From the NCBI GenBank assembly GCA_964019425.1, contig OZ025844.1, forward strand, positions 310,001-374,000: 64,000 nt of DNA, given 5' to 3'. The notes below the pieces were generated by a model. It ran no database searches. It saw nothing but the letters and a program-made list of their open reading frames with translations, and had not been told where the DNA came from. Positions 9,047 through 60,952 of this stretch are shown piece after piece; within the stretch, counting starts at the first letter, position 1; each line of letters starts with the position of its first letter. The DNA comes from Flectonema sp. DT1601. Its lineage: Eukaryota; Euglenozoa; Diplonemea; Diplonemida; Diplonemidae. The position numbers were made by a program, and so were the translations under genes.

Positions 9047-10388
9047 TTACTCCAGAACTGGTTCAGCAACTTCACCGACGACAACCTCCTCAGTAGGCTT
9101 AACAACTGGGTCGAAGGCGAACCCCTCCTTTTGGATTTCTTCTTCAGAAACAGGGATTGCTTGCATAAGGGAAACTACATTCTCGAGTTCTGTGGCTTTG
9201 ACAGCCATAGATTTCTTGGTTCTTCTCTTCTTGCAACAGGTACAGCACAACACCACACTAAGAGTCATGACAATTACCGCACCAACAAGTGATAAAATAC
9301 AAGCAACCTTCGATCTGCCGTGGTGGTGGTGGTGATGACGGTGGTGTTCACTGAGGTAGTGCTCTTCCTCATCGATAGCATTCATCACATTCATGGATTC
9401 CATCAGAGGCATAAGCTCATTCTGAATCATCTGATCCAGGAGTTTAATGTCCGCAGGGGTCGGCATGGACGCGAAAACCCATTCGATGGCAACAAAAGTC
9501 TCTCCAGCCCGAAGCACATCAGCGCTGCTTGGCTCAATACATCCAGCCCGTATTCTCAACTCTTCAGTTTCTGGACATCCATTCAGGCAGCTCTCAGCAG
9601 GACACGCGAACATAATTCTGATCTCCAGCAAGAAGTCGAACTTCGCAACGACGGTGGCCGTAATCTCGTTCAACTTCTGAATGCTGGCACCGACAGCCTC
9701 AACAGGCTGATTCAACAATAATGGGAAGGAAATCGTCAGAGGGCTGTTTGTGTTGTTAGTAAAGGTGTGAAAGAAGAATTACAGAAACACTTTCTCTTCC
9801 TCGCCTTCCAATTAAATATTTCAGAACCCTATTTGCTTTTCATCTTTTCAGATAAATTAATAAATAATACATAACATACTCCTGATTGTCTTGTCCATCG
9901 AAGTCATCGTTGTCGTCGTGGTCGTTGTGATCGAACCCGTCATGGCGACGATCCTCGCCATCTCTCTTGTGTCTGTTGTGGTAGTCATCATCATCGTGAT
10001 CATCACCATCGCGGTGGTGACGCCAGTTGTGTCCCCAACGGTGGTGTCCACTTCCACTTCCACTTCCAGAGAACCATTCCTTTAAGTGCTCACTGAGGTC
10101 ACTTCCATCAAACCATTTGTCACCACTTGAAGAACCATCGTGATGTTTCCAATGATGACCAACTTGACTGTTGGAAGACTCGTGGTGTTGGTTGTTATCC
10201 CATGCGTCACCTCTGAAATTCTCTCCGTCACCGTGCTCCTTGTGATGTTCTCCCCATCCATCGTGACCGTCACCACCTTCCTTCCATCCTTCATGGTCAC
10301 CGTGGTTTTCGTGATGACGCCCTTGACCCTCGTGACCGTGAGCCTGAACGGCAGCAATAGTTGCCGCAACAGCCAAAGTTGTCTTCAT
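9047..10388 (-). CDS. HRP-A: histidine-rich single-pass membrane protein, two exons
   Basis: Exon 1 is 9880-10388 and exon 2 is 9047-9743, joined by a GTATGT...AAACAG intron with an ACTAAC branch-like site. The product is 401 residues. Residues 1-16 are a signal peptide (MKTTLAVAATIAAVQA). Residues of about 17-169 are a His/Gly/Asp-rich ectodomain that also carries the phrase FDGSDLSEHLKEWFSGSGS. The second exon adds a conserved module with C217, C222, C226 and C238 (CPAESCLNGC then AGC), a second His run (HHRHHHHHH), a membrane span at about 316-337 and a Lys/Arg-led tail ending EVVVGEVAEPVLE. The protein should sit in the plasma or an endomembrane with the His-rich part outside or lumenal. 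Metal or proton binding is inferred from composition only. A likely trans-splice acceptor (CAATTTCCCTCAAAAG) lies 20 bases before the ATG. Confidence 0.8.
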
Positions 10389-10467
10389 GTTTATGGATTT
10401 GTTTGCTTTTGAGGGAAATTGAGGTTTTCACTTTTAAGTAATTCCGCCTTACTTTGAACTCTCTGTT

Positions 10468-10575
10468 GTAGTGAAGATTATTAATGTTCTCACAACAACA
10501 TAGTTCTCCTCATCGAAGATGTCTGAAGTGATTGGTTCTTATTTTTTGGTAAACTGTTCAGAGAAGTAATATTTA
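10468..10575 (-). pseudogene. Relic of the NTF2-like gene (copy 1)
   Basis: About 69 bases at 10468-10536 match 7458-7526 inside the NTF2-like gene with a few changes. They are followed at 10543-10575 by a piece matching 7790-7825, the start region and acceptor of that gene. The intervening coding sequence is absent, so the copy cannot encode the protein. It shows that the ancestral duplication began inside the NTF2-like gene. Confidence 0.75.
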
Positions 10576-10630
10576 TAACACACAAAGAATCAAAATCATA
10601 AAAAGAAAAAAACTGCGTCGAATTTAACGT

Positions 10631-10916
10631 CACCTATCCAAGTCACCTCAAAGTGTCCCCATCCAAGTCACCTCAAAGTGTCCCCATCCAAGTCACCTCA
10701 AAGTGTCCCCATCCAAGTCACCTCAAAGTGTCCCCATCCAAGTCACCTCAAAGTGTCCCCATCCAAGTCACCTCAAAGTGTCCCCATCCAAGTCACCTCA
10801 AAGTGTCCCCATCCAAGTCACCTCAAAGTGTCCCCATCCAAGTCACCTCAAAGTGTCCCCATCCAAGTCACCTCAAAGTGTCCCCATCCAAGTCACCTCA
10901 AAGTGTCCCCATCCAA
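10631..10916. repeat. 25-bp minisatellite, about 11 units
   Basis: A perfect head-to-tail array whose unit begins CACCTCAAAGTG and ends CCATCCAAGT. There are about 11 copies here against about 17 in the sister array at 14020-14456. Because 25 is not a multiple of three, all three plus-strand frames stay open and encode the same 25-residue repeat; these are not genes. Confidence 0.95.
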
Positions 10917-11257
10917 CAGATGTAAAACATCCGTAGGATGCGTGTTAGAAACAGTTAGCACTTTTTTGGCTTTGCTTGTTTCTCCCCGTCCTGCTCTCTT
11001 ACACAGTTCCAAGTGTTTTCGTATTGCAAGAAGAACTGTTACAAAAAAGACGATAAAATGTAAGAGCCAGTGACATGAATTACCAGAGGGGAAACTTGCA
11101 ATGACAAGTGAACATAATTCGTATTTTAAAAAAGAGGAAAAGAGGAAGGTGGAGGTAAGAAGATGGCAACAGCTGAATCGAAACCCAGTTCAGTTGTTGT
11201 TGGCTTAAAAAACATCAAACTTTTTCTTCACGCGAAGAAAAAGAATTAAAAGAAAAT

Positions 11258-11513
11258 GGGGAAAACCCTCCATTCCACAAAAAGTTTCCGAAACCGCCAA
11301 GTGAACACAAATCTCATTGTGGAGAAGCAACTCACACCCTAAGAGGAAGAATTGCTGAGGCGTTTCGTTGTTTAGATCCTCCACAATGAAATACATCTCA
11401 CGTGGTTTCGTAGTCTTGTTGGATTCCGGTGATACAAAACACACAAGGAAACCTATCGTTGTACGAAGTTAATGGTTTCAGAAACCTTTGTGTTGTGGAT
11501 TAGTCGTTTTCCC
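11258..11513. mobile_element. Short inverted-repeat element, family 1 (256 bp)
   Basis: Same tips and flanks as the copy at 7994-8155, with the full-length interior (a GATTCCGGTGATACAAAAC segment). It was carried along by the segmental duplication rather than inserted independently. Confidence 0.65.
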
Positions 11514-12429
11514 AAAATAAAAAAGCGAAGGAGAAAAGAAAACTATTTCACCTTTGCACTTCTACTAAGAAAAACTCTTGTCCCCAAGAGAGAGATTGAG
11601 TGTGTACACAAATACTGCGATAACGACATGGAAACGCTATGGCGACAATCATCTACAAATTAAGGAAATAAATAAATAAATTTAAGAAAAACAAATTCTT
11701 GTCCACATGAAAAAGTGTGCACAACGAAAGTGACTTGCAAATGAATAACATAGTCGGGAGGTAATTTGACACTGTAAGTAAATACAAAACAACTTCTAAC
11801 TGGATGAAACTAAAATAAGGTTCAGCCAACCCAGTTGCCATGTAAAAAGGCCAGCAGTTGGTATCAATAAAATAGAGGGAGGGAAAACGAATCTCGTAAT
11901 TTTATTTTTTAGTCTTCGACTTTAAACGAAGAGATATAAAATAATTATTTTGGACAAATGTCTACTGGAGGGGTTCCATTCTTTTTTTTGATGCCCCCTC
12001 CGCATCAATCATAACAAACAATAGCCGGAGCTGTATTCCTTTCAAAGCTGGAGTGGTGGACAGTTGTTCAAGGCCGAATTATTCAGACTATGATACTCCA
12101 ACAAACTCTTTAAAGAAAAAACTTTCCAAGAGAAGCCTTGCTCATTCGTGAAAAACAATCAACCGTAGGAACCGTAGGAACCGTCGGTGAAGATACCGAA
12201 CTTACAATGCTTGCCTTGTGATTGTGTTCCTTTAATTGGAAAGACAGGTGGGGTGAAATGTTGACAATGTAAAAACAGTAACAACTTTAGGTATTAAAAA
12301 CATACTTGACTGGAAAAATATTTGTGGTTGTTAATCAAAGACAGGTGGGGAGTAAATTGATACTGCAATATCAACAGACAGGTGAGGGGAAGATAGACAA
12401 AAAACAGTTTATTCATAAAATAAAATGCT
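11514..12429. other. Spacer downstream of HRP-B
   Basis: No gene. It is near-identical to 8156-9046, with a small insertion of AT-rich sequence around 11875-11950. Confidence 0.55.
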
Positions 12430-13777
12430 TTACTCCAGAACTGGTTCGGCAACTTCACCGACGACAACCTCCTCAGTAGGCTTAACAACTGGGTCGAAGG
12501 CGAACCCCTCCTTTTGGATTTCTTCTTCAGAAACAGGGATCGCCTGCATTGGTGTGACTACTTTCTCGAGTTCTGTGGCTTTGACAGCCATAGATTTCTT
12601 GGTTCTTCTCTTCTTGCAACAGGTGCAGCACAACACCACACTAAGAGTCATGACAATTACCGCACCAACAATTGATATAATTAAAACAACCTTCGATCTG
12701 CCGTGGTGGTGGTGGTGATGACGGTGGTGTTCGCTGCGGTAGTGCTCTTCCTCACCGATGGCATTCATCACATCACCAGATTCCATCAGAGGCATAAGAT
12801 TAGCATTCTGAAGCATCTCAAGGAGGAGTTTAATGTCCGCAGGGGTCGGCAGGGATGCGACAACTACTTCAACAGCAACAATACTCTCTCCAGCTCCAGC
12901 CTGAAGCGCACCAGCTTTCCTTGGCTCAATACATCCAGCCTGCATTCTCAACTCTTCAGTTTCTGGACATCCATAAAGGCAGCTCTTAGCAGGACACGCG
13001 AACATAATTCTGATCTCCTGCAAGAAGTCGAACTTCGCAGCGACGGTGGCCGTAATCTCGTTCAACTTCTGAATGCTGGCACCGACAGCCTCAACAGGCT
13101 GACTGAACAATAATGGGAAGGAAATCGTCAGAGGGCTGTTTGTGTTGTTAGTAAAGGTGTGAAAGAAGAATTACAGAAACACTTTCTCTTCCTCGCCTTC
13201 CAATTAAATATTTCAGAACTCTATTTGCTTTTCATCTTTTCAGATAAATTAATAAATAATACATAACATACTCCTGATTGTCTTGTCCATCGAAGTCATC
13301 GTTGTCGTCGTGGTCGTTGTGATCGAACCCGTCATGGCGACGATCCTCGCCATCTCTCTTGTGGTGGTCATCATCATCGTGATCATCGCCATCACCATTG
13401 CGGTGGTGACGCCAGTTGTATCCCCAACGGTGGTGTCCACTTCCACTTCCACTTCCAGAGAACCATTCCTTTAAGTGCTCACTGAGGTCACTTCCATCAA
13501 ACCATTTGTCACCACTTGAAGAACTATCGTGATGTTTCCAATGATGACCAACTTGACTGTTGGAAGACTCGTGGTGTTGGTTGTTATCCCATGCGTCACC
13601 TCTGAAGTTCTCTCCATCACCGTGCTCCTTGTGATGTTCTCCCCATCCATCGTGACCGTCACCACCTTCCTTCCATCCTTCATGGTCACCGTGGTTTTCG
13701 TGATGACGCCCTTGACCCTCGTGACCGTGAGCCTGAACGGCAGCAATAGTTGCCGCAACAGCCAAAGTTGTCTTCAT
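12430..13777 (-). CDS. HRP-B: histidine-rich single-pass membrane protein, two exons
   Basis: Exon 1 is 13272-13777 and exon 2 is 12430-13135; the product is 403 residues. Exon 1 is almost identical to HRP-A, including signal peptide and His-rich ectodomain, with a short in-frame difference in the GDDHDDDDHHKRDG stretch. Exon 2 has the four-cysteine module (CPAKSCLYGC then AGC), a His run before the membrane span and the same tail as HRP-A. Downstream of the module it carries AGALQAGAGESIVAVEVVVA, the form shared by copies C, D and E; copy A departs from it. The intron is 136 nt, GTATGT...AAACAG, in the same phase as in HRP-A. Function unknown. Confidence 0.8.
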
Positions 13778-13856
13778 GTTTATGGATTTGTTTGCTTTTG
13801 AGGGAAATTGAGGTTTTCACTTTTAAGTAATTCCGCCTTACTTTGAACTCTCTGTT

Positions 13857-13964
13857 GTAGTGAAGATTATTAATGTTCTCACAACAACATAGTTCTCCTC
13901 ATCGAAGATGTCTGAAGTGATTGGTTCTTATTTTTTGGTAAACTGTTCAGAGAAGTAATATTTA
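13857..13964 (-). pseudogene. Relic of the NTF2-like gene (copy 2)
   Basis: Same two fragments and the same deletion as at 10468-10575, so the loss came before the last duplication. Confidence 0.75.
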
Positions 13965-14019
13965 TAACACACAAAGAATCAAAATCATAAAAAGAAAAAA
14001 ACTGCGTCGAATTTAACGT

Positions 14020-14456
14020 CACCTATCCAAGTCACCTCAAAGTGTCCCCATCCAAGTCACCTCAAAGTGTCCCCATCCAAGTCACCTCAAAGTGTCCCCA
14101 TCCAAGTCACCTCAAAGTGTCCCCATCCAAGTCACCTCAAAGTGTCCCCATCCAAGTCACCTCAAAGTGTCCCCATCCAAGTCACCTCAAAGTGTCCCCA
14201 TCCAAGTCACCTCAAAGTGTCCCCATCCAAGTCACCTCAAAGTGTCCCCATCCAAGTCACCTCAAAGTGTCCCCATCCAAGTCACCTCAAAGTGTCCCCA
14301 TCCAAGTCACCTCAAAGTGTCCCCATCCAAGTCACCTCAAAGTGTCCCCATCCAAGTCACCTCAAAGTGTCCCCATCCAAGTCACCTCAAAGTGTCCCCA
14401 TCCAAGTCACCTCAAAGTGTCCCCATCCAAGTCACCTCAAAGTGTCCCCATCCAAC
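14020..14456. repeat. 25-bp minisatellite, about 17 units
   Basis: Same unit and same flanks as the array at 10631-10916, with about six more copies and essentially no variation between units. Such uniformity suggests active slippage or unequal exchange. Its position is about 240-680 bases upstream of the HRP-B start. Confidence 0.95.
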
Positions 14457-14796
14457 AGATGTAAAACATCCGTAGGATGCGTGTTAGAAACAGTTAGCAC
14501 TTTTTTGGCTTTGCTTGTTTCTCCCCGTCCTGCTCTCTTACACAGTTCCAAGTGTTTTCGTATTGCAAGAAGAACTGTTACAAAAAAGACGATAAAATGT
14601 AAGAGCCAGTGACATGAATTACCAGAGGGGAAACTTGCAATGACAAGTGAACATAATTCGTATTTTAAAAAAGAGGAAAAGAGGAAGGTGGAGGTAAGAA
14701 GATGGCAACAGCTGAATCGAAACCCAGTTCAGTTGTTGTTGATTTAAAAAACATCAAACTTTTTCTTCACGCGAAGAAAAAGAATTAAAAGAAAAT

Positions 14797-15052
14797 GGGG
14801 AAAACCCTCCATTCCACAAAAAGTTTCCGAAACCGCCAAGTGAACACAAATCTCATTGTGGAGAAGCAACTCACACCCTAAGAGGAAGAATTGCTGAGGC
14901 GTTTCGTTGCTTAGATCCTCTACAATGAAATACATCTCACGTAGTTTCGTAGTCTTGTTGGATTCCGGTGATACAAAACACACAAGGAAACCTATCGTTG
15001 TACGAAGTTAATGGTTTCAGAAACCTTTGTGTTGCGGATTAGTCGTTTTCCC
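14797..15052. mobile_element. Short inverted-repeat element, family 1 (256 bp), third tandem copy
   Basis: Tips as in the copy at 11258. The flanks here, AAAGAAAAT on the left and AAAGAAACG on the right, still look like a decayed 9-bp target-site duplication. Confidence 0.65.
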
Positions 15053-15773
15053 AAAGAAACGGGGTCGGAGGAACAAGGTATTTCACCTTTCTACTTCTAC
15101 AAATAAAATAAACGAGAGAATGAAATTGAGTGTGTACACAAATACTTCGTTATCGAATCATCTGCAAATAAAAAAACAAACACAGAACTCTGGTCCACAT
15201 AGGAAATTGTGCACAACGACAGTGACCCAGGAACATGGCTTCAAAGAGTCAGAAGCCTGCTAAAATGGAACATAATCGGAGAAAAAAGAATTTCGCAATC
15301 CCTTTTTTATCCCTTTTTTATTTGTTGATGTTCCCCCCGCTGCGGCATGTTGAGCGAATTTTAAAAAGAAAACAGGAGAGAGAGAAACCTGGGGGAGATT
15401 ATAATTATTTTGGACAAATGTCTACTGGAGGGGGGGTTCCAATCTTTTTTTTTGATTCCCCCTCCGCATCAATCATAACAAACAATAGCCGGAGCTGTAT
15501 TCCTTTCAAAGCTGGAGTGGTGGACAGTTGTTCAGTGCCGAAATAATCAGACAGTGATACTCCAACAAACTCTTTAAAGAAAAAACTTTCCAAGAGAAGC
15601 CTTGCTCATTCGTGAAAAACAATCAACCGTAGGAACCGTTGAGTTGAAGATACCGAACTTACAATGCTTGCCTTGTGATTGTGTTCCTTTAATTGGAGAC
15701 AGGTGGGGTAAATTGAAACTCTATTATCAATAGACAGGCGAGGGGGGGATAGACAAAAAAACTTATAAACGTT
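15053..15773. other. Spacer downstream of HRP-C
   Basis: No gene seen. Parts match the spacers after HRP-A and HRP-B, for example around 15410-15690; other parts are unique. Confidence 0.5.
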
Positions 15774-17843
15774 TTACTCCTGAACTGGTTCGGCAACTTC
15801 ACCGACGACAACCTCCTCAGTAGGCTTAACAACTGGGTCGAAGGCGAACCCCTCCTTTTGGATTTCTTCTTCAGAAACAGGGATCGCCTGCATTGGTGTG
15901 ACTACTTTCTCGAGTTCTGTGACACAGCTAGTTTTGGCAGCCTTGGTTCTCTTTGCTTTTCTCTTCTTGCAACAGGTGCAGCACAACACCACACTAAGAA
16001 TGATGATACTGACCAACCCAACAATCAATAAAATACAAACAACCTTCGATCTGCCGTGGTGGTGATGATGACGGTGTTCGTTGTGGTAGTGCTCTTCCTC
16101 AGCGATGATATCCATCACATCACCAGATTCCATCAGAGGCATAAGATTAGCATTCTGAAGCATCTCAAGGAGGAGTTTAATGTCCGCAGGGGTCGGCATG
16201 GACGCGACAACCACTTCAACAGCAACAATACTCTCTCCAGCTCCAGCCTGAAGCGCACCAGCTTTCCTTGGCTCAATACATCCAGCCTGCATTCTCAACT
16301 CTTCAGTTTCTGGACATCCATAAAGGCAGCTCTTAGCAGGACACGCGAACATAATTCTGATCTCCTGCAAGAAGTCGAACTTCGCAGCGACGGTGGCCGT
16401 AATCTCGTTCAACTTCTGAATGCTGGCACCGACAACCTCAACAGGCTGATTCAACAATACTGGGAAGGAAAACGTCAGAGGGCTGTTTGTGTTATTAGTA
16501 AAGGTGTGAAAGAAAAACTACAAAAACGCTATCGCTTCTTGCCTTCCATTATTTCATAAAATTATCGATTAATAAATTAAATAAAGAGATTTACGCTATT
16601 GAGGCAATTTCGCTGTCACCAGATAGAACTTTACCCGAAATTTGGACCCATAGGGGCACAGTTAGGCCAGAGCTGCAGCTCACACAGGTTCGGTATGTAT
16701 TTTGGACATAAGCCAAAAAAATTTAAACGCTGGGAATTGGCGGACGCAAGCCCCCACTCTTCCTAGCTTGGTAAGCTCACAAACAAAAAATCCGCCGCAA
16801 GCCAAAGTAATGGGTCAAGTTCGAGTCCTAGTGGAGAACTTCTTTTTGCAGGGGTTGGCGATTTCACAAACTATTTTTGTAGAATTAGAGGTTTTAAAAG
16901 ATTTAACCAAAAACCCTGGACTTTTTTACTGTACGGCGAAAATGAAATTATAGAACTCCAATTGCGAAAACTTCTAATATATGACATACCCCAGACCGTC
17001 TTGTCCATTGAAGCCATCGTGTCCATAGTTATCACCATCCTTGTTGTGGTAGTTATCACCATCCTTGTTGTGGTAGTAGTCACCATCCTTGTTGTGGTAG
17101 TTATCACCATCCTTGTTGTGGTAGTTATCACCATCCTTGTTGTGGTAGTTATCAACATCCTTGTTGTGGTAGTTATCACCATCCTTGTTGTGGTAGTTAT
17201 CACCATCCTTGTTGTGGTAGTTATCAACATCCTTGTTGTGGTAGTTATCACCATCCTTGTTGTGGTAGTTATCACCATCCTTGTTGTGGTAGTTATCACC
17301 ATCCTTGTTGTGGTAGTTATCACCATCCTTGTTGTGGTAGTTATCACCATCCTTGTTGTGGTAGTTATCACCATCCTTGTTGTGGTAGTAGTCACCATCC
17401 TTGTTGTGGTAGTTATCACCATCCTTGTTGTGGTAGTAATCGCCATCCTTGTTGTGGTAGTTATCACCATCCTTGTTGTGGTAGTAATCGCCATCGCCAT
17501 CGCCATCGTGGCGGTGACGCCAGTTGTGTCCCCAACGGTGGTGTCCAGTTCCACTTCCAGAGAACCATTCCTTTAAGTGCTCACTGAGGTCACTTCCATC
17601 AAACCATTTGTGACCACTTGAAGAACTATCGTGATGTTTCCAATGATGACCAACTTGACTGTTGGAAGACTCGTGGTGTTGGTTGTTATCCCATGCGTCA
17701 CCTCTGAAATTCTCTCCGTCACCGTGCTCCTTGTGATGTTCTCCCCATCCATCGTGACCGTCACCACCTTCCTTCCATTGTCCCTCGTGACCGCGAGCCT
17801 GAACGGCAGCAATAGTTGCCGCAACAGCCAAAGTTGTCTTCAT
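15774..17843 (-). CDS. HRP-C: histidine-rich membrane protein with an octapeptide array, two exons
   Basis: Exon 1 is 16990-17843 and exon 2 is 15774-16482; the product is about 520 residues. Signal peptide and early ectodomain match HRP-A and B, with a shortened His stretch after the signal peptide. After HHRWGHNWRHRHDGDGDGD comes an array of about 20 copies of the octapeptide GDNYHNKD (some GDYYHNKD or VDNYHNKD), encoded by a 24-bp minisatellite. Each unit offers one His and two to three Asp/Asn ligands. Exon 2 carries the usual four-cysteine module, His run, membrane span and tail. The intron is 507 nt, against 136 in A and B, because it contains a relic of a mobile element. Donor and acceptor (GTATGT, AAACAG) and phase are unchanged. 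Confidence 0.8.
16610..16899. mobile_element. Relic of the 807-2030 element family inside the HRP-C intron
   Basis: The stretch shares TACCCGAAAT and CACACAGGTTCGGT phrases with the core of the 807-2030 element. It ends with GATTTCACAAACTATTTTTG then TAGAATTAGAGG, a decayed copy of that element's right arm. It lies wholly within the HRP-C intron and is absent from the introns of the other tandem copies. Confidence 0.55.
17028..17490. repeat. In-frame 24-bp minisatellite of HRP-C
   Basis: About 19-20 head-to-tail copies of a 24-base unit (CACCATCCTTGTTGTGG plus a variable TAGTTAT or TAGTAGT end) encode the octapeptide array of HRP-C on the minus strand. The period keeps the frame, so copy number can change freely. 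Confidence 0.95.
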
Positions 17844-18436
17844 GTTTATGGACTTGTTTGCTTTTGCGAAAATAAATAATAATTACCAGCCTACCTACTG
17901 TTCTTCACCAGCAGTAAGGAAATGTTGCTTAAAATTTGTTTTTTAAGGAGAGGAAGTAAGCAATCCCCAACACTGAGATAAACTAAAAGGGCAAACAGTT
18001 TTGCACGAGGTACTCAACCACCCCTCAGACAAAGAGTTGGGAAAGACGGCTTGGCAAGTAGTGGAAGATAGTTGTAGATATTTTTGAATTTTTTTTATTG
18101 TATTGAATTGTATTTTTTTTTTATTTTTTTTGTCGCGATTACTAAAAAACAGAAAACAAGAGATCAACAACGCAACAAAATAATTCGAAGAAGAAAAAAA
18201 AAAAAAGAAATTTCTTCCTCCCCTCCTTATATCGTCCAGGAACTCAATAAGTAAGTTGAGAGACGTCAAAGTTGATAAAGAGATCAACAAATAATTTTCA
18301 TATAAACAAATCGCATAATAGTCCGTTGAAACAGCTTTTAATTTTTTAAAATATAAAACACACCAAAAAGACAGGGTAGATAGCATTCTCGAACAGGGTG
18401 GAAGATCAAAGAATCAAAATTAAAAGACATCATGCT
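17844..18436. other. Spacer between HRP-D and HRP-C
   Basis: No gene. AT-rich, with a T run near 18110-18130 and an A run near 18190. Just upstream of HRP-C is the acceptor-like TTATTTATTTTCGCAAAAG, probably its trans-splice site. Confidence 0.5.
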
Positions 18437-19765
18437 CTATATTTGAGCTGGTTCGGTAACTTCACCGACGACAACCTCCTCAGTAGGCTTAACTACCGGG
18501 TCGAATACGAATGATCCCTTGAGCATTACTTCCTCAGAAACAGGGATCGATTCTTCACTTTCACAGCCCTTCTCGAGGTCTGCCTTGGATGCGGCTTCGG
18601 CCTCAGCTTTGGCCTTCATGGCTCTCTTTGCTCTTCTCTTCTTGCAACAGGTGCAGCCCAGTAACACTACGACTGTTAGAATGCAAGCAATCTTAAAGTA
18701 ACAGTGGTGCTGGTGACGGTGATGGTATCCATGGTAGTTGTTTTCTTCTTCTTCAACGATGATACTCATCACATCTGTTGGTTCCATCAGAGGCATAAGA
18801 TTAGCATTCTGAAGCATCTCAAGGAGGAGTTTAATGTCCGCAGGGGTCGGCATGGACGCGACAACCACTTCAACAGCAACAATACTCTCTCCAGCTCCAG
18901 CCTGAAGCACACCAGCTTTCCTTGGCTCAATACATCCAGCCTGCATTCTCAACTCTTCAGTTTCTGGACATCCATAAAGGCAGCTCTTAGCAGGACACGC
19001 GAACATAATTCTGATCTCCTGCAAGAAGTCGAACTTCGCAGCGACGGTGGCCGTAATCTCGTTCAACTTCTGAATGCTGGCACCGACAGCCTCAACAGGC
19101 TGACTGAATAATACTGGGAAGGAAAACGTCAGAGGGCTGTTTGTTGGTTATTTCATTCAATTGGAAATTTTATTACTTCTGACCGATCTCATTGTCACAT
19201 CGTCGCCGTCTAATAAAATAAAACAAAACAATACAAACCCTTCATTCTGGAATATGTTTTCTTTACTGTGGTGGTAGAACCTATTGCGGCGACGACCTCC
19301 ATCTCTGCGATTTCTGTTGTGGTGGTCATCACCAAAGTGGTGGAATCTGTTGTGGCGACGACCTCCATCTCTGCGATTTCTGTTGTGGTGGTCATCACCA
19401 AAGTGGTGGAATCTGTTGTGGCGACGACCTCCATCTCTGCGGTGTCTGTTGTGGTGGTCATCATCATCGTGATCATCGCCATCGTGGTGGTGGTGACGCC
19501 AGTTGTGTACCCAACGGTGGTGTCCACTTCCACTTCCAGAGAACCATTTCTTGAAGTGTTCACTGAGGTCACTTCCATCAAAGTGACTGTCGGTAAAATC
19601 AGCATCGTGGTCATCATTACAAGGCTTTCCTCCGTTGTTAGACTTTGGTTTAGGTTCACCCTCAGTCACACTGTTGTCTTTCTCCACAATTTCCGGGTGA
19701 GGTGGCTTGCTTTCTTGGGACTGGACAGCTGCCAAAATTGACACAACAACTAAAACCTTCTTCAT
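18437..19765 (-). CDS. HRP-D: histidine/arginine-rich single-pass membrane protein, two exons
   Basis: Exon 1 is 19239-19765 and exon 2 is 18437-19136; the product is 408 residues. The signal peptide is MKKVLVVVSILAAVQS. The ectodomain differs from A-C: a Pro/Glu/Lys stretch, the shared FDGSDLSEHFKKWFSGSG phrase, then three tandem copies of a 22-residue His/Arg-rich unit (with RRDGGRRHNRFHHFG). The intron is 102 nt, GTTTGT...AAACAG, in the same phase as the others. Exon 2 has the CPAKSCLYGC/AGC module, a shorter His run, a shorter membrane span and a more Ala/Glu-rich tail, ending TEPAQI. The start is preceded by CATTTCTCCTCCAG, a convincing acceptor. D and E form a second subfamily. Function unknown. 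Confidence 0.8.
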
Positions 19766-20595
19766 ATTTATTTTCGCTTAACTGGAGGAGAAATGATTTC
19801 ACTGAGAACATTAACGAAGTGTAGTTCTGTTTATCAAAATCCTTTCTCTAATATCTCAACATTGTTTCTCTGACTTACTGTAAGAAAGAACAAGAGAACA
19901 CCATCTACCAACTTCTCATTAATAAAATAGCAAACACTAAGCAATCCAAGTAAGTCGAAAAGGTTGGTAATTGACTTCGTTATATTCGGGTGTGACGACC
20001 GAATAACGACGCAGATTATAGTCATCAGTGCATTTTTTTTTTTTTTTTTTTTTTCTTTCTTTTCTACTATTCCGAAGAATGTACTTTACCATTTCGAGCA
20101 AACTATAACTATTTCAAGGAAAGCTATCGAGGAGAGAGTATTTAAAAAAAAAATATTATTCCCTTTTGGCGCTATCAAAGAGAAGCAAAAGAGGAAGGTA
20201 GGTAGTGGAAGTAGACCCAAGTGGAAGATTTAAATGGATAAGAAAAAAGACAACAACAACAATCCTGACAAAGGAACTGAAGAGGTTGAAAGAAATAGAT
20301 TACTTCATTTCCTTTTTTTTTTTTTTTTTTCCATCTCCGAAATGTTTTGGTACATAACTCTTTTTATCGAAGTTTCGTTAATTAGAGTTTTTGTTTTTTT
20401 TTTATTTTCGTTTCAACGTCAAAGGTGGATAGGTAGTACTAAAAGATGTCAAAAGCCGATAAACGATCAACTTATGATCTTCTTACCAAATGTTATCAAA
20501 AGAGAGAGAACAGTTATTTTATACACAAAAACTAAAGAAGACAGGGCAGATAGCAAAAAAAAAAAAGAGGGGATTCAAAAAAAAGGTATTATGCT
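19766..20595. other. Spacer between HRP-E and HRP-D
   Basis: No gene seen. It has T runs near 20033-20055, 20307-20330 and 20393-20403. Short open frames on the plus strand lack protein-like content. Confidence 0.55.
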
Positions 20596-22002
20596 CTATT
20601 CTTGAGCTGGTTCGGTAACTTCACCGACGACAACCTCCTCAGTAGGCTTAACTACCGGGTCGAACACGAATGATCCCTTGAGCATTACTTCCTCAGAAAC
20701 AGGGATCGATTCTTCACTTTCACAGCCCTTCTCGAGGTCTGCCTTGGATGCGGCTTCGGCCTCAGCTTTGGCCTTCATGGCTCTCTTTGCTCTTCTCTTC
20801 CTGCGACAGGTGCAGCACAACATTACACTGAGAGTGATGATAGTGACCAACCCAACAAGTGATAAAATACAAGCAATCCTCGATCTGCGGTGATGGTGAC
20901 GGTGATGGTATCCATGGTAGTTGTTTTCTTCTTCCTCAACGATGATACTCATCACATCTGTTGGTTCCATCAGAGGCATAAGATTAGCATTCTGAAGCAT
21001 CTGATGGAGGAGTTTAATGTCCGCAGGGGTCGGCATGGACACGAGAACCACTTCAACAGCAACAATACTCTCTCCAGCTCCAGCCTGAAGCGCACCAGCT
21101 TTCCTTGGCTCAATACATCCAGCCTGCATTCTCAACTCTTCAGTTTCTGGACATCCATTCAGGCAGCTCTTAGCAGGACACGCGAACATAATTCTGATCT
21201 CCTGCAAGAAGTCGAACTGCACAGCGACGGTGGCCGTAATCTCGTTCAACTTCTGAATGCTGGCACCGACAGCCTCAACAGGCTGACTGAATAATACTGG
21301 GAAGGAAAACGTCAGAGGGCTGTTTGTTGATTATTTCATTCAATTGGAAATTTTGTTCTTCTGACCGATCTCATTGTCACATCGTCGCCGTCTAATAAAA
21401 TAAAATAAAAACAATACAAACCCTTCATTCTGGAATATGTCCTCTCTACTGTGGTGGAATCTATTGTGGCGACGACCTCCATCTCTGTGGTGTCTGCTGT
21501 GGTGGTCATCATCATCGTGATCATCGCCATCGTGGTGGTGGTGACGCCAGTTGTGTCCCCAACGGTGGTGGCCACTTCCACTTCCAGAGAACCATCTTTT
21601 GTAGTGCTCACCGAAGTCACTCCCATCAAAGTGATGACTCCAGTGGTGACCAACTTGACTGCCCGAAGAATCATCGTCGTGATGACGGTGGTGTCTTCCC
21701 CATTTTCGTTGCCATCTGGATTCCTGAACCTCACCGTTGCTGTTTTCAGCCACATTGCTACCGTCTAGCTGTGGTGGAGCCACACCGCCTTCACGGCGTT
21801 CTTCACGGCGCTCACGGCGTTCTTCACGGCGCTCCTCACGACGCTCGCGGCGGTGCTCACGGCGATCTTCACGACGTTCGTGGCGGTGTTCACGACGCTC
21901 ATGGCGTTCTTCATGACGCGTCTGAACACTGTCAGGTTTCTCTTGAGTGTCCTGAGCCTGAACAGCAACCAGCACTGCTGCAATGGCTAAAGTCTTGTTC
22001 AT
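20596..22002 (-). CDS. HRP-E: histidine/arginine/glutamate-rich membrane protein, two exons
   Basis: Exon 1 is 21422-22002 and exon 2 is 20596-21319; the product is 434 residues. The signal peptide is MNKTLAIAAVLVAVQA. It is followed by a highly charged stretch of Arg/Glu repeats (RREDRREHRRERREERREER), which no other copy has, then the His-rich part with FDGSDFGEHYKRWFSGSG. The intron resembles that of HRP-D (GTTTGT...AAACAG). Exon 2 has CPAKSCLNGC/AGC, a short His/Arg run, a full membrane span (ACILSLVGLVTIITLSVMLC) and a tail nearly identical to HRP-D. It is the first copy of the array in transcription order. Function unknown. Confidence 0.8.
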
Positions 22003-48818: not shown

Positions 48819-49736
48819 TTATCCCAAGGCGACATCGAGGACCATCATCGTGATAAATCCGACAATGCATCCAATACTCGCAGTTCTGCCATTGCCGTTG
48901 TGTTGAGCTTCAGGGATTAAATCGTCTACAACGACGAAAACCATAGCACCGGCAGCAAAACTCATTGCATAGGGAAGAATAGGCTCCATTTGGTCGACAG
49001 CCAACGCTCCTAAGACGCCTGCAAACGGTTCAACCATTCCACTGAGTTGTCCGTAGAAAAAACATTTCCAAAGTGGTAAACCTTGCCGACGAAGTGGTAA
49101 GGAAACAGCCATTCCTTCGGGGAAGTTTTGGAGTCCAATTCCAAGAGCCAGATTGAATGCATCATAGAATGAACATCCTAATTTGGAACATGTGTCAGTA
49201 CCAAGGTAACCAAACCCAACACCAACAGCCATCCCCTCAGGTATATTATGAAGTGTTATCGCAAATACTAACATTAAAACTCTTCTCCAAGAAGCTTCCT
49301 GGGCGAGAAGGACGGAGTAGTCGTCATCCTTTTTCGCCTTCGCAATTCGATTCGATTCGATGTATGTTTTCATAACGTAATCACCCAATGCTACGAATAG
49401 AACACCAACAGCGAATCCTATGGCTATTGGTAACCAAACAATATTAATGTGAGATCCATCAATTCTTTCAAAGAGTTGAGTGTCTTTGTAAAAGGGTGTT
49501 TGCTCAGCGATAGCAATAGCAGGAGCCAAGAGAGACCAGTATGAAGCTGCCAACATAACGCCTCCAGCAAAACCGTAGCAAGCATCCAGAAATCGTTGTT
49601 TTCCTGTTCCAGATCCAAGAAGAGGATCCACGAACACGATTGCTGAACCCAATGCTGTTACACCCCATGTAAACATCGTGCCCGCCAGCGCCTGTTGGAC
49701 TGGCGAGAGAGCTTTAAGTGAGGCAACCCAATCCAT
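48819..49736 (-). CDS. ZIP family zinc transporter, ZIP11/GufA type
   Basis: A 305-residue protein with about eight membrane spans. The two metal-binding helices are intact: TLHNIPEGMAVGVGFG (H-N-x-P-E-G) and IGLQNFPEGMAVSLPLR (Q-N-x-P-E-G). That Q-N variant, the missing long His loop and the fold order mark the GufA/ZIP11 subfamily (SLC39A11). ZIP proteins move zinc into the cytosol. An upstream acceptor ATAACCCTTTCTAAAG lies 18 bases before the ATG. No introns. Confidence 0.92.
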   Translation of the reverse strand: MDWVASLKALSPVQQALAGTMFTWGVTALGSAIVFVDPLLGSGTGKQRFLDACYGFAGGVMLAASYWSLLAPAIAIAEQTPFYKDTQLFERIDGSHINIVWLPIAIGFAVGVLFVALGDYVMKTYIESNRIAKAKKDDDYSVLLAQEASWRRVLMLVFAITLHNIPEGMAVGVGFGYLGTDTCSKLGCSFYDAFNLALGIGLQNFPEGMAVSLPLRRQGLPLWKCFFYGQLSGMVEPFAGVLGALAVDQMEPILPYAMSFAAGAMVFVVVDDLIPEAQHNGNGRTASIGCIVGFITMMVLDVALG

Positions 49737-50460
49737 TGTTAGTTATGTAGCTCTTTAGAAAGGGTTATATCACAGATCAATAAAATATAATTAAAAAACC
49801 AAATCAATGAAACTACACGAAAATTCAACTCCTTAATTCTGAGGAGGAGGAATAAATATGTTAGTCCACATCCATGGAGGAAATGTTTGTTTATTTTATA
49901 TTCAATGATCAATAATAAAATATGTTGTTCATCTGTTCTGTAAAAACAAACTTCGCTATCTCCCTGCTTCTGATAATCAATTCTGACTGGTGGGAAGAAA
50001 ATACATAAAAGAATATGAAGTGAAAAATCCATTTTTAAAAAAAAAATAATAAAAAATATAATATTACCAAACAATAATTCTCAAAACAAAAAAAAGAACC
50101 CATTTCAGGGATGCGAGTGGCGGCGTGTTTTCTGTTCTCTATTTCCTAAAATAAGCTGTCTGTAAAGACAAGAATTGCCAGATGGCACTCAGATGCTTGA
50201 ACTGAAACCCTTTAGACATATAAAAATAACATAACAAAAAAAAAAAGAATAAAAAAAAAAAGACAAAAAAAAAGAACAGATTTAACGCTTTTTTTTCTTT
50301 TTTTTCTGTTTATTTTTCCCCTCGTTCTTCGGTAAACACAAAGAACTCAAATGGCAGAAGTTGCAGGGGATGTTGACAAAGACAAACCTAAAAGAAAAAG
50401 TTGATTTTTCACAACTGAGAGCAGACAGGCAACACGAATAGTATCTAACAGTGGAGAGAG
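49737..50460. other. Spacer between NEK kinase and ZIP genes
   Basis: No gene accepted. A Leu/Ile/Phe-rich minus-strand frame at 49739-50074 contains CTTCCCACCAG and probably represents the ZIP leader or an alternative acceptor rather than a protein. A runs lie near 50040 and 50240-50270. Confidence 0.45.
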
Positions 50461-58944: not shown

Positions 58945-60225
58945 TTAGTAAGGATCGTTCTTCTTAACAGAGACTGGAACCTGAGGAATTTCCTCAAGTT
59001 CCAGTTCTTTGTTCTTGGATTCAGCTCTAATTTCTGAAGGGGTTGGTGATTCGATGTCACAATTTTCAACTTTGTCTGTTGTTCTACAACAGCACACATA
59101 CAAACTGAAAACTAACACGCAGATTGCAACAACACCAGCAGCAGAACTCCCAATGATTATTGCAAGTTTGCGGTTCTCATCACTATCGGTGGCGTCATCA
59201 TCATCATCATCATCATCACCGTAGATAACTAGAATAGATGTTACTTTAGCATCAGAGAACGGTCCAGTACCGGATAAAGAATCAGCAGCAATATCTAAAG
59301 CGATATTGTCTACTGCTTTCATTAAGTCTGCATCCTCCTCAAGTGTCAACACATATTCCACAATCGATAACTCAGATTGCTTAGCTGAAACATCTCTTGA
59401 TGGTGACTGTCCCTCAATACAACCCGCATCATATCTCAGCTCTGGTGATGCCAGACATCCGAAAGAGTTACAAGACACAGCTGGACACGCATACAAAACA
59501 GATACATCTCTCACGAGTTTTTCATTCTTGTTTGCAGACAACAATAAAATCTCACGTAGTTTGTTAAATAAAATGTTTGATGGAGAGGCTGCTATCTGAA
59601 CATAGGTTCTAATAGTCTCTTGATTCACATCTGGTTCGCTCATGTCATTCGTGTCGTCGTCGTAGTGTTCTTCATCATCATCATCGTGTTTAACTTCAAA
59701 TTTGTAATTCTGTAGTTTAGTTACGTGATGAGCTGCCAGTTCATTTCTACTAATGGCATTTAGAATTCTGTGAAAAGCTGTGTCTCTCACTACAGGATTA
59801 GCAGTGTGGACGACGAAGTCTAAAAGTGAAGTTGGTGAACCAACCTGAAGTGGAACAACACGAGGAGCAGGATTATTATTTGTAACGCATCCTGAGGCAG
59901 TCAAGTTTTTTCTTGGTGGACATCTGCCATCTGGACAAACAGTACCCGGACAGACAAAGAGAGGATAAATCTCAAGCGCAACATTGTCATCCATTATAGA
60001 AATAGTTTCCAACGCACTAGAAAGACGGAACATATCAACAGAAGTGACAGCAGCGTTGATAACTAAACGTCCATGCGCAGGTGGTGGGATATCACTGTCC
60101 GACAAGTCGTTAGAATCGTTAATGTCGTTAACGTCGTTAACGTCGTTACCATCCTGACGATGGTTCTCTCTGCCAGCAAGACTCATCGTCACTACAGACG
60201 TCAGCATTATTAAAGAACTCGACAT
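58945..60225 (-). CDS. Distant HRP relative: membrane protein with two four-cysteine modules
   Basis: A 426-residue, single-exon protein from the ATG at 60225. It has a signal peptide (MSSSLIMLTSVVTMSLAG) and an Asn/Asp-rich stretch with a repeated DVND/DIND motif. Module 1 has C92, C97, C102 and C113 (FVCPGTVCPDGRC, ending SGC). After a His/Asp patch, module 2 has C247, C252, C257 and C269 (YACPAVSCNSFGC, ending AGCIEG). An Asp run, a membrane span at about 353-376 and a Cys-rich start of the tail (CCCR) follow. Module 2 lines up with exon 2 of HRP-A to E (FACPAKSCLYGC, AGCIEP). The acidic runs here take the place of the His runs of the tandem family. The acceptor CTTGTTTTAATACAG lies upstream. 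Function unknown. Confidence 0.78.
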   Translation of the reverse strand: MSSSLIMLTSVVTMSLAGRENHRQDGNDVNDVNDINDSNDLSDSDIPPPAHGRLVINAAVTSVDMFRLSSALETISIMDDNVALEIYPLFVCPGTVCPDGRCPPRKNLTASGCVTNNNPAPRVVPLQVGSPTSLLDFVVHTANPVVRDTAFHRILNAISRNELAAHHVTKLQNYKFEVKHDDDDEEHYDDDTNDMSEPDVNQETIRTYVQIAASPSNILFNKLREILLLSANKNEKLVRDVSVLYACPAVSCNSFGCLASPELRYDAGCIEGQSPSRDVSAKQSELSIVEYVLTLEEDADLMKAVDNIALDIAADSLSGTGPFSDAKVTSILVIYGDDDDDDDDATDSDENRKLAIIIGSSAAGVVAICVLVFSLYVCCCRTTDKVENCDIESPTPSEIRAESKNKELELEEIPQVPVSVKKNDPY

Positions 60226-60952
60226 GTCTTCTTTTTGTTTTGTCAAATTGAAATCTGTATTAAAACAAGTTAACGGTTAACACAAAAAAAAAAAAAAAAT
60301 CTTTTTTAAAATAACTCACAACACCAAAAATACATAATTGAAAACACTACACAAAAAAAATTTTTTTTTGACTTAAAATACACTAATCGGGATCCAGGGA
60401 ATGGAAGAAACACTGGTGGTTTATAAAGTTACACCTTGGCTAACCGAGCTATCGTAGCCCCTAAGTAGTCAGCTTGCACAGTAAACGAACAAATGAAACA
60501 ATACATTTCTTGTAAGAAATACAATATAAAAAAAAATTAAAAAAACAAGATTTCTTCTTGTTCTGATGTTTTTTTTGCCAAAAAAGAAACTCTACAACAA
60601 AAGAGTGTTAACCTGGAACGACAGAAATGTACTTTTTTTTTTGGAGTCAAATTCAGCTGTGCTGACCTATGTTTTTCAATACGCATCTCTTCCGAGTTCT
60701 ATAAAACACTGATAAGAGGAATAATTTGAATATTATTCAGCGTAGGGATTGACTTTCATGTTTTTTCACCTTCCAAAGAAAAAGCGAAAACAGAAACTCC
60801 GGCTCCTTCTGCATTCGGGTATATCCCGAGCGTGGTGGTACCTGTTATTGGTTTGTAATTTTGAAATAAACATTTCACTAGAAAAGTAAAAAGGTACGAC
60901 TAATTTATTACTACAAACCAAATATAGGCTAACGTATGGTGAGGCTGTGATA
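60226..60952. other. Spacer upstream of the distant HRP relative
   Basis: No gene seen; A and T runs near 60283-60297 and 60350-60370. Confidence 0.5.

Follow-up and report, generated by a model that had tools for sequence, protein, structure and literature searches.

The window analysed here, a 64,000-nucleotide stretch of the genome of the marine diplonemid flagellate Flectonema sp. DT1601, carries five tandem genes (copies A to E) that form one branch of a large family of single-span membrane proteins. In every copy, the protein runs from a repetitive outer part through a four-cysteine membrane-proximal module to a membrane span and a tail. The family extends across the genome, its outer arrays differ where the module stays recognisable, and the DNA encoding the module bears a conversion-like pattern among the five copies. 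The best explanation, to which we give a probability of about 0.5, is that A-E form a mucin-like tethered coat on a SEA-like anchor, with arrays that turn over and a module homogenised by gene conversion. The family is so far known from this genome, and its A-E branch also from the transcriptome of one other species.

Five tandem genes share one architecture

The five genes lie on the minus strand between positions 9047 and 22002, and each consists of two exons separated by one GT-AG intron of phase 2 at a common position. These coordinates, frames and joins reproduce those proposed in the sequence-only reading that preceded this work. Copy A comprises exon 1 (9880..10388; signal-like start and His/Gly/Asp-rich outer part), the intron (9744..9879; GTATGT..CAG) and exon 2 (9047..9743; module, His run, membrane span and tail). 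The corresponding segments are found at 13272..13777, 13136..13271 and 12430..13135 in copy B, at 16990..17843, 16483..16989 and 15774..16482 in copy C, at 19239..19765, 19137..19238 (GTTTGT..CAG) and 18437..19136 in copy D, and at 21422..22002, 21320..21421 and 20596..21319 in copy E. From A to E, exon 1 measures 509, 506, 854, 527 and 581 nt and always ends in phase 2, the introns measure 136, 136, 507, 102 and 102 nt, and the joined products count 401, 403, 520, 408 and 434 residues; internal stops are absent and all five frames are complete. The introns of A-C have a GTATGT donor, those of D and E a GTTTGT donor, and exon 2 starts with CCCTCTGACG in every copy. As judged by eye, exon 1 opens with a signal-like N terminus in all five copies. 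About 65-75 residues follow the hydrophobic span. The span of copy D is nine residues shorter than that of the other copies, with an extra Cys and a Lys near its start, and may be a weaker anchor.

The FDGSDLSEH..WFSGSG phrase is found in all five outer parts (in copy E as FDGSDFGEHYKRWFSGSG). Their remaining contents differ as had been described: copy C bears an octapeptide array (24 nt x 19.6, 17026-17495), copy D 22-residue units (66 nt x 2.9, 19271-19463) and copy E Arg/Glu repeats (21789-21913). Amino-acid identity between outer parts is 41-78% over aligned residues, except for A-B (98%), and their net charge ranges from -31 (C) to -1 (D). The idea that copy A exon 1 represents a separate family was rejected, its only matches in this genome being the five copies.

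The main doubt raised by the sequence-only reading was that exons 1 and 2 might belong to separate transcripts. P0006, a 383-residue protein predicted from a Trinity transcript of another species in EukProt, joins a signal-like start, a His-rich stretch, the exon-2 module, a span and a tail in one frame, which answers this doubt as far as sequence allows, in another species. P0006 is 47% identical to exon 2 over 99% of the query, and falls into one group with A-E (support 100/99) in a 22-module tree, of which only this group was used, 8 of the 19 inner branches being open. Its architecture is that of A-E, with a different exon-1 sequence.

The module recurs across the genome under different arrays

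The window lies on contig C65 (positions 310001-374000); the assembly comprises 92 contigs and 89,535,806 bases. Five protein queries located the module (E <= 0.001) at about 44 places in this genome. C65 holds seven (the five copies, a two-module gene and one at 510 kb), C85 ten, C6 seven, C31 five, C8 and C3 three each, C57 two, and C58, C17, C84, C69, C61, C19 and C36 one each. Matches covering the acidic stretch and span only (on C52, C60, C2, C42 and several on C85) are left out of this count, and 11 counted places (99 and 101 kb on C3, the one on C36, both on C57, 510 kb on C65 and five on C85) entered it without reading by eye. Two counted places are damaged: one on C3 is a fragment of 115 aa, and one copy on C31 has an in-frame TGA. 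Every other member read to its end has the span, cysteines in a juxtamembrane stretch, and a short tail. Comparison of the A-E profile with nine sequences of other branches gave a probability of 97.3 and an E value of 1.8e-11 over 67 columns. Across 17 aligned modules, some of them selected by a cysteine motif, the four cysteines, a proline and a glycine never vary.

The arrays carried by these relatives are diverse. C6 genes 782 and 836 show 99.2% identity in the first 120 nt and 88.0% in the module, and the arrays between differ: Glu/Gly/Arg/Asp in gene 782 (800-aa frame) and DHGSDKHEESNS in gene 836 (950-aa frame). Gene 859, with a module 98.1% identical to that of gene 836, has a His-richer array (29% His). 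The C8 genes bear arrays of the GEKREERL type. In the C31 genes, whose frames reach 7,921 aa, the arrays are of Val-Pro-Thr-Ala, and one of these genes matches the PT repeat of Pfam. Among seven genes compared, the module was more alike than the span and tail in 21 of 21 pairs, narrowly so for C8 519-532 (98.9 vs 98.3%). The contrast of a variable outer part with a more constant anchor, first noted for the five copies, thus holds and extends beyond the window, as the C6 genes 782 and 836 illustrate.

Further relatives depart from the one-module layout or from these array types. Within the window, about 37 kb from copy E, a minus-strand gene (58945..60276) with one open frame of 443 aa encodes two modules and a single membrane span; its first module is nearest to C85 genes (up to 54% identity), and its second (59212..59631, minus strand) to C6 genes (39%). 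A C84 relative (429563-430282, L058) also has two modules and one span, followed by a tail that by eye resembles a Tudor or SH3-like fold (DRVKALYIDGQWYDGEIAG...), for which a Pfam search gave no match. On C19 (412001-422000, L034), a relative lies in a 2,553-aa frame, with an outer part that by eye consists of Cys repeats of the type C.G..SC.

Outside this genome, one scan of viral contigs found no relatives. Among the protein-database matches listed (7998 candidates scored), P0006 and proteins of this genome were the only relatives, and a region search returned the query alone, which does not imply absence elsewhere. No title or abstract on this module family appeared among the best-ranked matches in the literature on diplonemid surface proteins and genomes, a search with subscription papers and the bioRxiv collection outside its scope, and the words 'transmembrane' and 'mucin' do not occur in the accessible part of PMC10161547.

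This diversity bears on a possible role in metal capture, in which the His/Asp-rich ectodomains of A-E would serve to take up or detoxify zinc, copper or iron by binding them. His makes up 14-18% of all five outer parts despite their differing sequences, a second His run lies beside the membrane, P0006 contains 44 His in 383 residues, and a gene for a ZIP-family zinc transporter lies in the same direction at 48819-49742, minus strand (Pfam PF02535, E 2.5e-23). This neighbour says little, however, as genes within one euglenozoan cluster are often functionally unrelated. The same module also sits under His-poor arrays: in C6 gene 782 and the two C8 genes measured, His is not among the eight commonest array residues. 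His-richness is thus a trait of some branches and not of the whole family, and the metal-capture role suggested earlier fits the His-rich branches only. Judging from His content, metal binding by A-E is chemically plausible; as a function common to the family it is unlikely, and we regard metal capture as a rather improbable account of these proteins.

The module segment is probably exchanged between copies

Exon 2 had been described as nearly the same in every copy. Computed without its first base, this is true of the first ~354 nt in copies B-E (12781-13135 in B, 16128-16482 in C, 18782-19136 in D and 20965..21319 in E, all minus strand), where the six pairs are 96.0-98.6% identical, with 5 to 14 differences. 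It does not hold for copy A, which is 90.4-91.0% identical to the others over the same segment (90-91% over the module) and 68.8-93.1% over the remainder, nor for the shortened span of copy D. Beyond nt ~354, identity drops abruptly, to 69.1-74.1% between B/C and D/E (68.8-74.1% when A is included with B and C), and is 90.4% for B-C and 92.3% for D-E. The intron directly upstream also differs, with 48-60% identity for A-C against D/E and 69% for A/B against C. Difference positions, synonymous counts and identities together delimit this homogenised tract.

Synonymous differences were compared between the first 345 nt of exon 2 and its remainder by Fisher tests, whose p values are guides, the counts being rounded and the sites non-independent. 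The contrast is strong in all four B/C vs D/E pairs: 3/79 in the module vs 29/71 in the rest for B-D (p 1.4e-8), 4/79 vs 28/77 for B-E (p 9.6e-7), 1/78 vs 31/71 for C-D (p 4.9e-11) and 2/78 vs 26/77 for C-E (p 1.5e-7). The same step is seen in A-D and A-E (p 2.7e-8 and 8.5e-7). It is weaker in D-E (p 1.9e-3) and A-C (p 1.1e-3), borderline in B-C (p 0.053) and absent from A-B (p 0.43).

Purifying selection on the protein, without gene conversion, could account for the four cysteines, the proline and the glycine that are invariant over the aligned members. It would not hold synonymous sites, which are equally constant in the module (1-4 of ~78 changed in the six B-E pairs) against 26-31 changes at 71-77 sites in the rest of the exon for the four B/C vs D/E pairs; nor does it fit the abrupt change at nt ~354 or the copy A module, whose dN/dS is 1.0-1.5 over 127 codons. 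We therefore consider it very unlikely as the sole cause. The simplest cause of the pattern would be recent exchange of the module segment between copies, with gene conversion the likeliest mechanism and unequal crossover an alternative. That the anchor is so similar between copies, which had been read as fixity, is accordingly not plain conservation. Compared with each of the other four, the copy A module shows 27-28 nonsynonymous and 4-6 synonymous changes; it gives no indication of strong purifying selection, and its ratio is compatible with relaxed or mildly diversifying evolution.

The module may resemble a SEA-type domain

No sequence match to the module was found in Pfam, NCBIfam or the PDB. 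Sub-threshold Pfam matches of A-E and relatives (TMEM51, MLANA, DAG1, TMEM154 and others) were discarded, falling, where shown, on the His/acidic stretch, span or tail and off the module, as was the single, meaningless NCBIfam match, on a span. Against PDB sequences, a profile that included the span gave mostly span matches (best E 0.011), and the module alone gave one match (E 1).

A structure was predicted for the second module of the two-module gene. The model, of moderate confidence, shows a beta-alpha-beta-beta-alpha-beta order, and PheRS and SEA (MUC16) domains are among its best fold matches. On this one predicted model, the module looks like a SEA-type (ferredoxin-like) domain, and its invariant cysteines would probably stabilise it through disulfides. 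None of the 17 modules matched Pfam SEA (PF01390) at E <= 1, with HMMER filters dropping most matches above ~0.1. A genome-wide SEA profile search found none either, but carries no weight, as the same search was positive in none of 14 control genomes. SEA domains that cleave themselves do so at a G-SVVV motif at the start of the third strand, and many true SEA domains are uncleaved. The G-S cleavage site is absent from A-E, where copies C-E read GESIVAVEVV and copy A GETFVAIEWV. The C19 relative, with SG-SVVEF, is the only one of the 17 aligned rows with a G-S directly before a V-V of SEA type.

Genomic setting

Two 25-bp minisatellites with 100% matches occupy noncoding DNA between A and B (10636..10916, 11.2 copies) and between B and C (14025..14455, 17.2 copies). 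Their repeat unit is not divisible by three in length, and both belong to the ~3.4-kb A/B duplication unit. In the copy C intron, a plus-strand stretch at ~16775-16850 contains, by eye, a box A-like TAGCTTGGTAAG and a box B-like GTTCGAGTCC, two motifs of tRNA genes. ARAGORN finds no tRNA in the window; the stretch is perhaps a tRNA-derived SINE (short interspersed element), an insert that could explain the 507-nt length of this intron vs 102-136 nt in the other copies. Two 31-bp tandem repeats about 1 kb apart (860-942 and 1894-1982) have units that are largely mutual reverse complements. Rfam gave no match within the window. Among the 34 open frames of at least 180 aa, 30 are on the minus strand, the four plus-strand ones lying over a minisatellite or antisense to arrays, a bias that fits polycistronic transcription.

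A search with the 3'-terminal 19 nt of the spliced leader (SL) of kinetoplastids and diplonemids, allowing one mismatch, gave 297 forward and 436 reverse matches, and the reversed control none on either strand. Many of the matches listed lie in arrays spaced 610 or 623 nt. Units of the SL RNA arrays (three in L037, four in L038) read AACCAACGATTCTAAAGCTACAGTTTCTGTACTTTATTG followed by GTACAGTC. The leader exon also occurs at single sites outside these arrays (five examined, L020-L024, on C1 and C2), in some cases followed by ATG, and such sites may have arisen by reverse transcription of trans-spliced mRNAs. At two places, the leader of this genome departs from the 39-nt leader labelled 'Euglenozoa 14' in PMC3795323, which we take to be that of Diplonema. 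The thirteen further euglenozoan leaders in the accessible part of that paper start with AACTAA or AACTTA. The SL RNA arrays point to a diplonemid host, and the 5' half of the leader makes a kinetoplastid host unlikely. In PMC12621601, which covers six diplonemids, four have mostly canonical GT-AG introns, as far as its accessible part reports.

Discussion

We propose that A-E display a charged, repeat-built outer part on the folded four-cysteine module beside the membrane, followed, just inside the membrane, by a cysteine cluster that could be lipidated and by the short tail. Such proteins would act as a tethered polyelectrolyte coat, the array providing charge, hydration and, in the His-rich cluster, possibly metal binding, and the module keeping the array away from the membrane. 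By analogy with mucins, the likeness of the module to SEA domains suggests a mechanical or spacing role. Arrays would change through gain and loss of repeat units, and gene conversion between neighbours would keep the module uniform.

The outline of repeat ectodomain, membrane-proximal module, one span and short tail is common to A-E and transmembrane mucins such as MUC1 and MUC16. The module differs from their SEA domain in lacking a Pfam SEA match and the G-S cleavage site and in its four added cysteines. The repeats differ too: those of A-E are rich in His and charged residues and, with 4-9% Ser (the only one of the Ser/Thr/Pro set counted), are not Ser-rich, and the C31 relatives carry Val-Pro-Thr-Ala repeats. 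Dystroglycan likewise has a SEA-like juxtamembrane domain, but the DAG1 match of one relative (2e-4, below the cut-off) covers the acidic stretch, span and tail and not the module, and thus does not support a sequence relation. Among euglenozoan surface proteins, the procyclins and mucins of trypanosomatids have short repeats, charged or of Pro/Thr, and tandem genes. These are anchored by glycosylphosphatidylinositol (GPI) and are not known to carry the module, whereas A-E, judged from sequence layout, have no C-terminal GPI signal, the span being followed by the ~65-75-residue tail.

Two other settings were weighed against a tethered coat. Extrusomes occur in some diplonemids, and long, low-complexity charged arrays of widely varying length would fit the packing matrix of such a dischargeable internal organelle, or of a feeding apparatus; the proteins would then not belong to the cell surface at large. 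Packed soluble material of this kind would not call for the span and short tail with juxtamembrane cysteines found in all members read to their end apart from the C3 fragment and the C31 copy stopped at its TGA, and this location appears improbable. Strict surface variation, with one or few copies expressed at a time and arrays swapped against a predator, virus or host, would match the tandem copies, the exchange between them and the differing and replaced arrays, but five complete frames out of five in the window speak against it, and we give it little credence. Nothing in the data particularly favours it, nor the pH-sensing role suggested earlier.

Returning to the tethered coat, we tentatively raise a broader possibility, for which the odds are clearly lower: diplonemids may have a transmembrane-mucin-like system of their own, comprising some forty genes. 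Its anchor would be a SEA-like domain that is specific to the lineage, braced by disulfides and able to carry exchangeable arrays reaching thousands of residues; conversion would focus on this anchor, and the arrays would be replaced. If true, a SEA-type surface scaffold would exist outside animals and their relatives, either as an independent gain or as an inheritance so far overlooked. The contrast of array and module offers a natural example of a protein in which conversion evens out the folded part while the disordered part turns over. With its roughly forty members and an anchor that can be recognised, the family would provide a first handle on the diplonemid coat, the anchor sequence being usable to find and tag such proteins. 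Should the module indeed be a SEA-type domain, the mucin design would reach beyond animals.
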